From positions 62,001-126,000 of the forward strand of contig PHAB01000005.1 in the NCBI GenBank assembly GCA_002840275.1: DNA of 64,000 nt, written 5' to 3'. Shown one piece after another: positions 7,835 through 19,277 of the stretch (position 1 is its first letter; each line of letters opens with the position of its first letter). The stretch is from Firmicutes bacterium HGW-Firmicutes-14 (GTDB taxonomy: Bacteria; Bacillota; Thermincolia; Thermincolales; UBA2595). The notes below the pieces were generated by a model, which saw only the letters and a list, made by a program, of their open reading frames with translations, did no database searches and was not told the DNA's origin. A program made the translations under genes and the position numbers.

Positions 7835-7862
7835 AACACCGGTACAACAACATAGGCGCAGG

Positions 7863-7894
7863 GTGGGCGGTCATTACCTCCGGTGAAAGGAGGT
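7863..7894 (+). promoter_or_regulatory. Toxin mRNA leader: sequestered ribosome site and long-range pairing element
   Basis: ACCTCC (7876-7881) pairs with GGAGGT (7889-7894), hiding the Shine-Dalgarno sequence of the toxin in a short hairpin. Just upstream, the 12 bases GTGGGCGGTCAT (7863-7874) are an exact complement of ATGACCGCCCAC at 8031-8042 in the 3' untranslated region. Both features are typical translation-silencing devices of type I toxin mRNAs. Confidence 0.65.
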
Positions 7895-7901
7895 GGTGAT
7901 T

Positions 7902-7988
7902 ATGAGTGTATTTCAATCATTGATGCTAATGATTTCGTTTGGTACATTAATTGTAGCATTAATTACTGTAACAAAACGGGAAAAGTAG
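7902..7988 (+). CDS. Holin-like type I toxin peptide (28 aa)
   Basis: The peptide starts MSVFQSLMLMISFGT, has one hydrophobic helix (LIVALITV) and ends TKREK. This matches the layout of the small putative holin-like toxins (Hol_Tox type, related to TxpA/BsrG-style peptides) that insert in the membrane. The ATG follows a strong AGGAGGTGGTG site at good spacing. The gene has its own promoter at 7806-7834, and its ribosome site is inside a hairpin. A convergent antisense RNA starts about 120 bases beyond the stop and overlaps the 3' end, the arrangement of TxpA/RatA and BsrG/SR4. A degraded copy lies immediately upstream. Toxicity is inferred from family resemblance and architecture. Confidence 0.72.
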   Translation: MSVFQSLMLMISFGTLIVALITVTKREK

Positions 7989-8107
7989 CCCACCCCCATA
8001 AGGAAAGCTACTTTTCCTTAAGCTTTCACTATGACCGCCCACTTGGTGCGGAAGTTGTACCTAACCGGGTGTTAGCGCACCCGGTCATTTCAATTATACA
8101 CCATTTA
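7975..8107 (-). ncRNA. Putative antisense antitoxin RNA
   Basis: Minus-strand promoter with -35 TTGCGC (plus GCGCAA 8131-8134 region; alternative register TTGCGT as ACGCAA at 8136-8141), 16-bp spacer from that register and -10 TATAAT (plus 8114-8119). The RNA would run from about 8107 to the GTAGC/GCTAC hairpin near 7975 and so be complementary to the toxin 3' untranslated region and last codons. It also covers the 8031-8042 element that pairs with the toxin leader. Ends are predicted, not measured. Confidence 0.6.
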
Positions 8108-8268: not shown

Positions 8269-8530
8269 AAATTTAGGTTTAACGGAACTTCATAAATCAA
8301 TGGCAATGAAGGGAACAGTAAGTATTTCGCAGCCTTTACAGAGAGCCGGGGCAGCTGCAAGCCGGCAGGGGCGGATTACTGAAAGCCATCCCTGAGTCGC
8401 TGAGCTGAAACCAAGTAAGCTTGGCCGTCCTCCCGGGCGTTAACGGGTCAGAGTTGGGCCGCCGGGCGGCGGCCAATTAGGGTGGTACCGCGTGAGGAGA
8501 ACTCTCGTCCCTTTGGGATGGGAGTTTATT
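8269..8530 (+). ncRNA. T-box leader, probable alanine specifier (GCC)
   Basis: The T-box sequence AGGGTGGTACCGCG is at 8479-8492 and the terminator stem AACTCTCGTCCC/GGGATGGGAGTT at 8500-8526 is followed by a T-rich run. Stem I landmarks are AGTA, AGAGAGCCGGGG and a lower GGGA/TCCC helix with K-turn-like ATGA/TGA. The specifier-loop 3' side reads GAAA-GCC-A-TCCCTGAG, which lines up with GAAA-GGC-A-TTCTTGAG of the B. subtilis glyQS T-box, so GCC (Ala) is the likely codon. The antiterminator bulge TGGT fits a tRNA ending ACCA (A73), as in tRNA-Ala. Uncharged tRNA would allow read-through into the regulator and aminotransferase genes. Confidence 0.88.
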
Positions 8531-15493: not shown

Positions 15494-16492
15494 TTAATAC
15501 CTGGAATGCAGGCGAATCGGGCTGGTTTTGCCCGAGTGGTTGGAAACAGTCAGCCAGAACAAGAGCCAGAAACCCAGCATCAGGGATAATCCCTGGCTTC
15601 CTGAAGGAGTCAGGATAGCTGAACCGATCATTCCATCGGTAAAGTGCTGTATTGCAGTCCAGACGGCCAGGGTTAAAGCAGTGCAGCCAAGGGTAAACAT
15701 AATACCAAAAGGCCGTTCCCCTTTGAACCACTTGGTAGGGATATAACCATAGTAATTGAAGAAAGCAATAATGGTTATTGCCCAGATGATGAAATCAAAA
15801 GACAGCTGTGGCATTGCCAGGTTCATCCGTCTGAAGAGGGTTTCAATAACAAAGGCAATTACCAGGCTCATAAGCAATGCAGACAGTTTTTCATCTTTCA
15901 TATGCCTGGCCGGAATGACAGGCCTCGCCTGGTGCTGGCCGATGCCAAGCCATGACAGAAGGGTTATAAACCATATTCCTCCCGCATTAATGCCTATGGA
16001 CAGGTGGCCAAAAGCTGTGCTCAGGATATAATTTGCGCCCGAGAATTCAGTTGTCATCCTGGCAAATGCCAGGTTGGCCCCTATTGTGAGGACAGCGGCT
16101 GCCAGGAGACCTACCAGCCGGTGTTTTACCAGGTCCATCTTACCTGGGAAACCCAGGTACCAGCTGATCCAGATAAACCACATAATTGCTGCCAGGGCAA
16201 AGGTTATGCCCATTACCGGAGCGCCCGCATAGTCGCCGGGTTTGGCCCAAATCCTCATATTCTCACTAAGGGCCACGGATTCGGGCACGGTTTTCAGCTT
16301 GGGAATGATCCCGCAGGACCACTGGGTGAATTCCCTGGCATTGATATCCAGGGCGGTTTCAATAACCTGAACATTTCCCTTGCCTATTGAATTGTCAACA
16401 AAGAATAAGCCCGCCAGGTTTAAGGCTGCCAGTGACAGAGAAACCAGAATTGCAATGATTGTGTTTAAAGCTCGTTTGTTCATCTTAATCAC
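15494..16492 (-). CDS. Uncharacterised multi-pass membrane protein
   Basis: 332 residues with about eight hydrophobic segments and a roughly 70-residue extracytoplasmic-like region after the first helix. The repeated pattern of Trp/Ile-rich helices (MWFIWISWYLGFPGK) is distinctive. I do not recognise the family. GTG at 16492 has GGAG five bases upstream. It overlaps the preceding small membrane-protein gene by eight bases, so the pair is almost certainly co-translated and may form a complex. A transporter or enzyme-anchor role is possible but nothing in the sequence shows it. Confidence 0.75.
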   Translation of the reverse strand: MIKMNKRALNTIIAILVSLSLAALNLAGLFFVDNSIGKGNVQVIETALDINAREFTQWSCGIIPKLKTVPESVALSENMRIWAKPGDYAGAPVMGITFALAAIMWFIWISWYLGFPGKMDLVKHRLVGLLAAAVLTIGANLAFARMTTEFSGANYILSTAFGHLSIGINAGGIWFITLLSWLGIGQHQARPVIPARHMKDEKLSALLMSLVIAFVIETLFRRMNLAMPQLSFDFIIWAITIIAFFNYYGYIPTKWFKGERPFGIMFTLGCTALTLAVWTAIQHFTDGMIGSAILTPSGSQGLSLMLGFWLLFWLTVSNHSGKTSPIRLHSRY

Positions 16493-16733
16493 AACTGCTC
16501 CACCAATAATTTACCCCGTATACCGCCAGAAGCCCGTAAAGCCAGGCCCCGCTCCATGTCAGACCTGCATGGCTGCTGCCCTTGCCCATACTGAAAAGGG
16601 CGCCGATAACCGGTATTGACAGCAGGACGGTAAACAAAACGATTATTGCAACCTTTAAGACCTCTATCAACCTGGCAGTCTGTCTTTCCAGAGATACTAA
16701 ACTGTGTTCTGATATTTCCCGTTTTTGATCCAT
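16485..16733 (-). CDS. Small membrane protein, partner of the downstream membrane protein
   Basis: 82 residues with a charged N-terminus (MDQKREISEHSL) and two hydrophobic helices. ATG at 16733 follows GGGGGGAG at ideal distance. The gene is first in a two-gene operon with the 332-residue membrane protein, overlapping by eight bases. No known family recognised; a small subunit of a membrane complex is the simplest guess. Confidence 0.7.
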   Translation of the reverse strand: MDQKREISEHSLVSLERQTARLIEVLKVAIIVLFTVLLSIPVIGALFSMGKGSSHAGLTWSGAWLYGLLAVYGVNYWWSSCD

Positions 16734-16769
16734 TGTTTCTCCCCCCAAGGAAAACTAGGATTTTATAAA

Positions 16770-17009: not shown

Positions 17010-18278
17010 TTATTCATCTTTGGTTAAAGGATTAACGGTTGCAGGTATAGTCTTGGGAACCGATACAGCCTGCGGCGCCTTGGTAATGAAGGTCAGGGCT
17101 GCCTGCAGCAGGCAGATAACAACGGCGACCATAAAGGAAGCATGATAACTCTGGGTTATATCGAAGATTTTACCGGCAACCATACCGCCGAAGATTCCGC
17201 CGACACCCCAGGAGGTGAAGACCAGGCCGTAGTTAACTCCAAGGTTTTTAGTGCCGTAATAGTCCGCAGTTGTGGACGGGAACAGGGAGAGGTTTGCTCC
17301 ATAGAAGGCTCCGACAGAAGCAGAACCAATGGCCAGGAGGATATCACTGGTAAAGTACTTGAAGAGGAAGAGAACTATTGCCTGGCCCAGGGCGATTAAC
17401 AGGATTGTACGGGTCCGGCCAAGCTTGTCGGAGAGGAATCCCGCGGCAATCCGTCCGCCGGCATTTCCGGCTGCCAGAATGGCTACGAAGATAGGCGCCA
17501 GTACGGTAGAAGGATTCTGGATAGCTGCCATCTTAGCCAGACTGCCGATAACCATCAGACCGGCAAAAGAGCCGAAACCGAACATCAGCCAGAGGAGGTA
17601 GAACTGGGGAGTTCTGACCATTTCATGCCATTCGTATTGATGCCCGGCGGGAATGTGTTTGGGACTGCCGGTTGCAGGCATGCCGAGCGGTATGTAACCG
17701 GCCGGGGGATTGACCAGGTTTTGCGAAAAGAGGAGAATGGTGATCAGGAAGAAAACACCCAGGATCATGAAAGTTTTGTTAATCGCATAAAGCCCAAGAA
17801 GCTTTGTGGTCAGGGGGGCCAGGTAAACAGACGCACATCCGTAGCCGGCCACCACAAGACCTGTGATCAAGCCCTTTTTATAAGGTGGGAACCACTTCTG
17901 GGCGGGTGGTGTGGCAGACCCGTAACCAAATCCCATTCCGGTACCTGCCAGGACGCCGAAACCGATGATCATCGGGAGAATTTGATCAGCATTGCCTAAA
18001 CCGGAAATAATCATCCCGGCTCCGATGAACACCCCGCCAAGGGAGGCCACGATCCGGGGTCCTATTTTATCCTGGAGCCTGCCGCCGACAACCATCATCA
18101 CGGCAAAGACTCCACAGGCAACGGCATAAGGTATGTTAGCCCTGGCTGCCGACCAGCCCCATTCTGCCGTCAAGGCTTTACCTATAACGCTCCAGGCGTA
18201 CAATACCCCCAGGCAGAGGTTGATGGCTGTTCCCGATAAGGCTACACTCCAGGCTTTTGCATTACTTTGTGCAGTCAT
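17010..18278 (-). CDS. MFS transporter, OFA (oxalate/formate antiporter) family
   Basis: About 422 residues with 12 predicted helices. The N-terminal half has the OFA pattern (NLCLGVLYAWSV, then GWS and GGRLQDKIGPR between helices 2 and 3), and the central loop is long. Family members exchange small carboxylates such as oxalate/formate or monocarboxylates; the substrate here is unknown. ATG 18278 follows GGAGGTG. The transcript begins near 18592 and carries a 314-nt leader with an intrinsic terminator-like hairpin, so expression is probably controlled by attenuation. Confidence 0.88.
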   Translation of the reverse strand: MTAQSNAKAWSVALSGTAINLCLGVLYAWSVIGKALTAEWGWSAARANIPYAVACGVFAVMMVVGGRLQDKIGPRIVASLGGVFIGAGMIISGLGNADQILPMIIGFGVLAGTGMGFGYGSATPPAQKWFPPYKKGLITGLVVAGYGCASVYLAPLTTKLLGLYAINKTFMILGVFFLITILLFSQNLVNPPAGYIPLGMPATGSPKHIPAGHQYEWHEMVRTPQFYLLWLMFGFGSFAGLMVIGSLAKMAAIQNPSTVLAPIFVAILAAGNAGGRIAAGFLSDKLGRTRTILLIALGQAIVLFLFKYFTSDILLAIGSASVGAFYGANLSLFPSTTADYYGTKNLGVNYGLVFTSWGVGGIFGGMVAGKIFDITQSYHASFMVAVVICLLQAALTFITKAPQAVSVPKTIPATVNPLTKDE

Positions 18279-18592
18279 TATTGACACCTCCAAAATTTAA
18301 TTAAATAAAGAATTTGCAAAAAATCATATCAAGAATGATTCAGCAGATTATAAGTCCGCAGATTCCGCGCAAACCGGCAGTACATCTGTTGTCTTTAAAC
18401 CGGTTTGCAGTTATAGAACCCATCGGCAACCCCCCCTTAGAAGCCAGACTTGCATGTATCCGGAAACAGAAAAAGCTGCTGCGTATTCCGCAACAGCCTC
18501 TGGGCGAAAATGCCTCCGGACTTAAAATAAAAGAGACCCAAAGCTAAAGACCGGCAGCGCGTGCCGGTCTCCGGGCTCTGGGCCTCAGGACT
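18279..18592 (-). promoter_or_regulatory. Structured 5' leader with attenuator ahead of the MFS gene
   Basis: On the minus strand the leader begins with an AGACCGGCA/TGCCGGTCT hairpin (18549-18573). About 100 nt from the start there is a GGCTGTTGCG/CGCAGCAGC stem (18475-18497) followed by TTTTT (18470-18474), which is an intrinsic terminator well before the gene. Two related blocks, AAGTCCTGAGGC and AAGTCCGGAGGC, occur upstream of the terminator. There is no T-box motif and I do not recognise a known riboswitch class. No credible reading frame fills the interval. Confidence 0.6.
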
Positions 18593-18598
18593 TTATTG

Positions 18599-18627
18599 AT
18601 TATATTGTATCGGGGTTTTCTCAATAA
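18599..18627 (-). promoter_or_regulatory. Promoter of the MFS transporter
   Basis: On the minus strand, -35 TTATTG (plus 18622-18627), 17-bp spacer and -10 TATAAT (plus 18599-18604). Confidence 0.6.
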
Positions 18628-18845: not shown

Positions 18846-19277
18846 TTGTTAAGGGTGAATAAAAACGTAATCATTAATGTTACGGGAATTCAGATAAATG
18901 AATATGGTGAAAGAGATGCCCAGGAATTTATTACCACCGGCAGTTATTATGCGAAAAAAGGGGCCTATTTCATTATATATAATGAATCCGAGGTTACCGG
19001 GATGCCCGGAACCACAACTTCACTTAAAGCGGAACCTGCCAGGGTTATTCTGAACAGGATGGGGACCTCCCAGCTGAGACAGGTATTTGAAACAGGCATG
19101 AGGCACCAGGGAAACTATGTTACCCCTTATGGCACAATGTATATGTCAGTTACGCCTTCCAGGGTGGAAGTGAACTTGACAGATGCCGGGGGGAGTATTA
19201 ATCTTGAATATGAACTGGAAATTGAAAATGAAAAGGTAAGTGACAATACCCTGTTGCTTACAGTGAGGGAGGCATAA
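18846..19277 (+). CDS. ywiB: YwiB/DUF1934 family beta-barrel protein
   Basis: About 143 residues with the DUF1934 pattern: alternating beta strands, SYYAKKGAYFIIYNESEVTGMPGT and a C-terminal INLEYELE strand. The calycin-like fold is known but the molecular role is not. It sits one base upstream of argS, the same order as in B. subtilis (ywiB-argS), which supports the call. Start is TTG 18846 or GTG 18855; both have weak ribosome sites. Confidence 0.85.
   Translation: MLRVNKNVIINVTGIQINEYGERDAQEFITTGSYYAKKGAYFIIYNESEVTGMPGTTTSLKAEPARVILNRMGTSQLRQVFETGMRHQGNYVTPYGTMYMSVTPSRVEVNLTDAGGSINLEYELEIENEKVSDNTLLLTVREA

Follow-up and report, generated by a model that had tools for sequence, protein, structure and literature searches.

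The window, by which we mean the whole 64,000-nt stretch of DNA analysed here, encodes on its minus strand an MFS transporter of the L-lactate type (SfMCT/OFA). The gene is preceded by a leader that runs from a -10-like word to the start codon and leaves about 190 nt between its last terminator and the gene (Table 1). Against the NCBIfam model for the L-lactate MFS transporter SfMCT the protein scores 414.9 bits (cut-off 320), and it falls below the cut-offs of the oxalate/formate models. The sequence-only reading had proposed an OFA transporter of small acids; the gene is closest to the L-lactate transporters (SfMCT) rather than to an oxalate/formate antiporter. Two membrane-like ORFs downstream probably belong to the same operon, and a DUF1934 gene diverges from the other side of the leader.

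Table 1. Features of the transporter locus and of two Rfam matches elsewhere in the window
Feature	Position	Strand	Remarks
DUF1934 gene (divergent)	start near 18855		other side of the leader
-10-like TACAAT	18604..18609	-	by eye; absent from the consensus promoter scan; upstream end of the leader
TATAAT word overlapping TACAAT	18599-18604	-	by eye
Units 1 and 2 in tandem	18592-18471	-	includes the unit 2 terminator
Unit 1	18592-18567	-	AGTCCTGAGGC-CCAGA-GCCCGGAGAC; leads into the two-part hairpin
Unit 1, half-site M1	18582..18592	-	AGTCCTGAGGC
Unit 1, half-site M2	18567..18576	-	GCCCGGAGAC; GAGAC supplies the 5' arm for the inner stem of the terminator
Unit 1, terminator-like two-part hairpin	18533..18586	-	by folding; inner stem 18572-18546
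Unit 1, tail of the hairpin	18532-18524	-	UUUUAUUUU
Unit 2	18522-18496	-	AGTCCGGAGGC-ATTTTC-GCCCAGAGGC; leads into the 13-bp terminator
Unit 2, half-site M1	18512..18522	-	AGTCCGGAGGC
Unit 2, half-site M2	18496..18505	-	GCCCAGAGGC; overlaps the terminator 5' arm
Unit 2, intrinsic terminator	18471..18501	-	stem of 13 bp, 3' end and tail rich in U; also recovered by the terminator scan
Short upstream ORF behind a G-rich Shine-Dalgarno-like run	18340..18436	-	27 codons
Transporter Shine-Dalgarno sequence GGAGGTG	18291-18285	-
L-lactate-type (SfMCT/OFA) MFS transporter	17010..18278	-	422 aa; ATG at 18278; the presumed regulated gene
87-aa membrane-like ORF	16485..16748	-	probably same operon; without family match
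332-aa membrane-like ORF	15494..16492	-	probably same operon; without family match
T-box (Rfam)	8297-8515	+
BsrG (Rfam)	7841-8085	+

The leader holds two tandem copies of an RNA unit. Each copy consists of two half-sites of the form AGYCCnGAGRC, which we call M1 and M2, separated by a gap of 4-6 nt; M2 at the same time serves as the 5' arm of an intrinsic terminator. Two AAGTCC(T/G)GAGGC blocks, a GC hairpin at the start of the leader and a full intrinsic terminator ahead of the gene had already been seen in the sequence-only reading, and all of them are there: the blocks are the two M1 half-sites, the hairpin is that of unit 1 and the terminator is that of unit 2. The count of blocks was incomplete, as each has a partner and the half-sites number four; the earlier account also lacked the point that the first hairpin is itself terminator-like, with its own tail. 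The segment from 18606 to 18464 folds with a z-score of -6.7 (0 of 200 shuffles folded as well), and the whole leader with a z-score of -5.7 (0 of 100). A search for copies of the whole leader in its own genome returned, besides the leader itself, chance-level pieces only.

We searched 61 genomes, the window's own and 60 relatives, for homologues of the transporter and found them in 18. Seven loci, all from the window's family and one per genome, have a leader with both units (loci L009, L010, L012-L015 and L033, in genomes G000 and G003-G008). Both units are thus kept in seven of the nine sampled genomes of the family, or before the orthologous gene in six of the eight others. They are reduced to a remnant in G001 (L011) and are missing from G002 (L017), so the leader is conserved in the family and yet can be lost; the refuting condition set in the sequence-only reading, a leader not conserved in homologues, does not hold for the seven, but these two lack the units. 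No unit was found before more distant homologues of the transporter, among those whose upstream DNA was read. In the seven leaders the hairpin of unit 1 is conserved with some compensatory change, the terminator of unit 2 is conserved, and a TAnAAT word lies at the same place upstream of unit 1 (by eye).

A consensus fold of the whole leader from these seven sequences has a small covariation term (-1.75). Two possible sets of pairs were not retained. Long-range pairs to the gene-proximal end were set aside, given the small covariation term and an alignment row for the window that ends about 60 nt before the gene. Pairing of the 3' arm of hairpin 1 with the 5' arm of hairpin 2, weighed by eye, was dropped, as a change in L033 follows the pairing within hairpin 1.

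The unit is not specific to the transporter. Using the pattern AGTCYNGAGRCN{3,8}GYCCNGAGRC, we found matches in 21 of 101 genomes (the window's own and its relatives) and, across the phylum, 102 exact matches in 29 of 398 genomes from 14 families; the reversed pattern, searched as a control in the same 398 genomes, gave two. The sites are mostly arrays in the leaders of multiheme c-type cytochrome operons. Among 18 loci inspected, which were chosen from the pattern matches and not drawn at random, 14 have genes with at least six CxxCH haem motifs; models of DmsE-like decahaem, NrfH-like and other cytochromes match some of these genes. At the cytochrome loci a leader of up to about 2 kb carries several matches, placed before, between and after small ORFs. 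Other genes with units are an AAA/VWA operon, a nuo-type operon and a locus with NifX/Mrp-like ORFs, and a further site precedes a small WPP-type ORF followed by a spoIIGA-like ORF (L124), the NifX/Mrp and spoIIGA likenesses being judged by eye. A covariance model built from 82 units and run on the window's genome located eight, of which two are those of the window, five share one locus (C35) and one stands before the AAA/VWA operon (C22).

Several family members have a unit directly ahead of the first gene in an operon of an AAA-ATPase (BchI-like) and a VWA protein (L108:713-3860 and L122:3347-8431, both on the minus strand, L086 and L092). Small membrane-like proteins of about 65 aa that end in WPP recur in unit-bearing leaders (L107:7247-7702, L113:4171-4371, L114:6119-6313, L124:4839-5042 and others); scans of two of them returned no Pfam or NCBIfam family.

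No Rfam family matches the transporter leader at the gathering score, in keeping with the earlier statement that it has no T-box features, and raising the limit to E = 5 brings one meaningless match and none to pyr elements. The leaders of the orthologous and paralogous loci have no Rfam match either, nor do the units of ten other loci that were searched; in those loci the matches lie away from the units and are tRNAs, glycine riboswitches and T-boxes. The sequence-only reading had left the choice between a riboswitch and a protein-dependent attenuator. The attenuator reading is supported, since promoter and gene are separated, here and in the orthologues, by two terminator units that are conserved and covary. 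Of the two alternatives, sensing of a small molecule, lactate or another, by the RNA itself, as in a riboswitch, would suit a long structured leader ahead of a transporter, but the conserved core of about 27 nt, with its stem of 3-4 bp, is too small for a typical aptamer, no Rfam family matches it at the gathering score in the loci searched, and it also stands before unrelated genes. Because the unit precedes such genes and tracks a family of zinc-ribbon proteins (below), a small-acid aptamer is disfavoured and protein dependence fits far better; we hold the protein-free account to be scarcely credible.

To examine the structure of the unit we compared 91 distinct copies; the second unit of L013, which reads AGTCT, lies outside the pattern used for this count. 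The R at position 10 of M1 and the corresponding Y of M2 form A-U in 64 units, G-C in 17 and G-U in 10, with no A-C. Omitting seven units in overlapping arrays left 84 for the terminator count. In 79 of these the terminator begins inside the second half-site, compared with a mean of 9.0 and a maximum of 18 when the downstream sequence was shuffled; five had no terminator by the test used. The final alignment of 82 units omits two more (L126 and L114:5339), both without a terminator, which slightly favours its terminator counts. In this alignment no unit is broken at the inner-stem R/Y pair, the cells of the inner stem and terminator are 90.0% paired, and their covariation is 0.361 against 0.193 for shuffled alignments (0 of 500 shuffles reached it), far above that of slid versions. 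The presumed antiterminator also has an outer stem, GUC with GRC, that could pair throughout (100%), with a 5' side that is nearly invariant and hence gives no covariation support. The alternative of two separate hairpins with CNGA tetraloops, one per half-site, has no covariation and six non-pairing cells among the 82 units, and a stem between the half-sites is therefore preferred.

These results bear on another account, in which the units are plain strong terminators, insulating or in tandem, the half-sites are a habit of terminator sequence and the promoter lies downstream of 18471. There is room for such a promoter in the roughly 190 nt that separate the last terminator from the gene, and the start position is a predicted one. 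The account sits poorly with M1, which is conserved although a terminator of the unit 2 type does not need it, and which covaries with M2; a -10-like element that, by eye, shortly precedes unit 1 in all seven leaders with both units also points the other way. We consider it quite improbable.

Each unit can form two hairpins, an intrinsic terminator and an imperfect half-site hairpin that would act as antiterminator, with an inner stem of GRC and GYC, a symmetric CNGA/CNGA internal loop and the outer stem. They are mutually exclusive and lie between promoter and gene, the arrangement of an attenuator, the outer stem of the antiterminator being the part without covariation. On average the computed energy is about -2.7 kcal/mol for the antiterminator and -19.7 kcal/mol for the terminator region, and the terminator region is the more stable of the two in 83 of 84 units. 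Termination is therefore the expected default by computation, and the half-site hairpin needs a stabiliser.

A published precedent for the arrangement is EutV: the part of PMC3369931 that treats it describes dual hairpins, the second overlapping a terminator, interspersed through the eut operon. The same logic would let an ANTAR-domain antiterminator read the unit. The half-sites likewise precede and overlap an intrinsic terminator and recur through operons, overlap of a terminator by the second element being the ANTAR-target feature seen in the 79 of 84 units, and ANTAR genes occur in 25 of the 29 unit-bearing genomes. The tracking is loose, however, since 201 of all 398 genomes have such a gene and four unit-bearing genomes have no match. 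Moreover, the hexaloops with A1 and G4 that define ANTAR targets are missing from the units, in which a half-site loop would be CNGA, and the covariation speaks for a single hairpin in which the half-sites pair with each other, not for two separate ones. We give an ANTAR reader very little credence.

Regulators of the BglG/SacY/LicT group act on a RAT, described in the same portion of PMC3369931 as one imperfect hairpin of about 29-30 nt that overlaps a terminator, and the unit resembles it in being a single imperfect hairpin in that position. A reader with the corresponding CAT_RBD domain was rejected: the domain is found in only 2 of the 29 unit-bearing genomes and not in the window's genome. 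The RAT sequence also differs from that of the half-sites.

A better candidate comes from the small ORFs in the cytochrome loci. Such ORFs, mostly of about 50-75 aa, occur at least once per locus in 14 of the 18 loci inspected, the same 14 that have multiheme cytochromes. Their alignment (33 sequences) gives the consensus xDxRCxCGKIVCQ...IIIKCRHCKRF, and we call them Com-like for reasons given below. None exceeded the cut-off of a Pfam family (eight proteins scanned) or an NCBIfam family (five scanned). A profile of the family matched ORFs in 43 of the 398 genomes at 1e-6 and in 35 at 1e-10. At the stricter threshold a Com-like ORF is present in 27 of the 29 unit-bearing genomes and 8 of the 369 others, a co-occurrence for which common descent and the cytochrome operons themselves are confounders. 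Fisher p-values, here as for the R/Y pair of the half-sites, take no account of shared ancestry and are not read as probabilities. The two unit-bearing genomes without a match (G005 and G006) have completeness of 61% and 63%. At closer range, 74 of the 102 unit matches lie no more than 2.5 kb from a Com-like ORF, and of the 88 Com-like ORFs at E < 1e-10, only 50 have a unit within that distance.

A second subtype of the protein, CKK...CRHCKRYIHI (L174, L175, L176, L177, L178 and L180), is found in genomes that lack units. In the stretches read, six of the genomes with Com-like ORFs and no units (G055, G093, G158, G166, G389 and G124) have the CKK...RYIHI subtype only; of the other two, G175 is of the CGK type and G082 of an odd type. 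G118, with only CKK-type ORFs in the stretch read, does have a unit match, and this match is among the five that have no terminator. The targets of these small zinc proteins may therefore be of more than one kind.

The Com-like profile aligns with Com of phage Mu (record AF083977) over 31 columns, with 39% identity and an hhalign probability of 94.8; a rubredoxin-type domain used as a control scores 1.4. Homology of the zinc-ribbon ORFs to Mu Com is likely on this one comparison. The Pfam model for Com, PF10122, gave one match among ten proteins scanned (eight Com-like and two WPP-type), and its 11.7 bits fall short of the cut-off, 22.9. A search by sequence for relatives of solved structure produced nothing useful (two KMT2D chains, E 0.012), and Foldseek with a model of the Com-like protein (pLDDT 83) found no match below E 0.27. 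The modelled fold is zinc-ribbon-like and no more specific than that.

In the sections of Nowacka et al. (2019; PMC6483171) that we draw on, the RNAs picked out by a Mu-like Com carry a pair of GAG(N)2CC cores, one on each side of a stem of 3-4 nt, and the target of the protein is CC(N)2-3GAG, often bipartite, in a hairpin loop whose closing pair is always C-G. The GA is crucial, two motifs are bound better than one, and binding is weaker when the motif lies in a duplex, the same text citing an opposite result on duplex binding (PMC6483171). As in these excerpts, the candidate reader of our unit is a small zinc-knuckle protein and the half-sites contain CC...GAG, with a C-G closing pair; two CC(N)GAG half-sites flank a stem of 3-4 bp, as in the bipartite target. 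The spacing differs, with one nucleotide between CC and GAG where the sections cited give two or three, and the covarying structure of the unit is duplex-like whereas the binding reported there is weaker to the duplex form. The published target, CC(N)2-3GAG in a loop closed by C-G, is thus not matched by the units, which have CC(N)1GAG. The first knuckle of the Com-like proteins is CxC, that of Com CxxC; Com activates translation of mom, whereas the unit overlaps intrinsic terminators. The agreement with the published target is close without being exact.

Taking these lines together, we think it rather likely that the leader attenuates transcription in two stages and in dependence on a protein, a Com-like one that holds the half-site hairpin and prevents termination. 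By default RNA polymerase would stop at both terminators before the lactate transporter. A Com-like zinc-ribbon protein made from a cytochrome locus elsewhere in the genome would, when abundant or activated, bind the paired CC-N-GAG half-sites as each unit emerges; the bound antiterminator would remove the 5' arm of the terminator, and polymerase would read through to the transporter. At the cytochrome loci the arrays of units interleaved with Com-like genes would repeat this logic, much as terminators do in the eut operon under EutV in the account excerpted from PMC3369931, and the transporter would share one regulon with the multiheme cytochrome operons. We infer the binding by the Com-like protein, its acting by antitermination rather than by enforced termination, and the signal, which is possibly the electron-acceptor, redox or metal state.

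The same element and protein could also work with the opposite sign, binding promoting termination as PyrR does, so that the transporter and the cytochromes are repressed and the protein limits its own synthesis. Com-like genes inside unit-bearing leaders would suit negative feedback as well as positive. The 3' strand of the half-site hairpin, however, is the 5' arm of the terminator, so that termination should be impeded while the hairpin is held. The terminator has by far the greater stability as it is, and no separate anti-antiterminator was seen. We regard this sign as unlikely. The loop bound by PyrR, with the consensus ARUCCNGNGAGGYU, does resemble one half-site, but it is two nucleotides longer, and the genes regulated by the unit are not pyrimidine genes.

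While protein-dependent antitermination is already known, the RNA unit, the candidate regulator and the regulon appear to be new; our searches of open-licence literature yielded no description of the unit or of the Com-like family, and none, at this level, of the control of multiheme cytochromes in electroactive Gram-positives. We hold a broader proposal with about as much confidence as doubt: that this is a new system of Gram-positive electron-transferring bacteria, in which tiny Com-type zinc-ribbon antiterminators act on paired CC-N-GAG half-sites, are encoded in multiple copies between their own attenuators, and tie lactate uptake to the synthesis of multiheme cytochromes. If true, this would be the first case known to us in which a Com-type protein has a chromosomal role beyond Mu-like phages, and also the first in which its role is directed at terminators. 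The comparison further suggests that cells possess relatives of the phage Mu Com fold that serve another task. The RNA unit and its candidate regulator define a testable regulon in 29 sampled genomes, the lactate transporter included, and offer a compact protein-RNA antitermination module.

Several observations lie outside this argument. The BsrG match in the window is oddly placed, just upstream of the T-box leader; BsrG is the antisense RNA of a toxin-antitoxin pair. A paralogous lactate-type transporter of the same genome (L029, G000:C46:17975-19234) has a different conserved leader, with the words ACCGAGAAGC ... CCTTGGGGGGAGAG ... ACGG ... GCTTC (by eye), shared with L016, L028, L030, L031 and L032. 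This leader has no Rfam match, and its conserved words are possibly those of another RNA element.

Between the last terminator and the transporter, a strong G-rich run resembling a Shine-Dalgarno sequence leads, in seven of ten orthologous leaders (L010, L011, L012, L013, L014, L015 and L033), into AUG-NNN-stop, in which both NNN and the stop codon vary. The upstream ORF has three codons in L017, four in L039 and 27 in the window. That the two-codon ORF is kept despite changes in its letters suggests selection, perhaps for a stabiliser of the mRNA or a ribosome trap. Upstream of the promoter (18850-18600 in the window, and the corresponding DNA of the orthologues) there are shared, repeated words resembling TTGACC or TTAACC, and a GTGCAA-like word at about -35 is common to the orthologous leaders (both by eye). 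These shared words suggest an additional, DNA-binding regulator.
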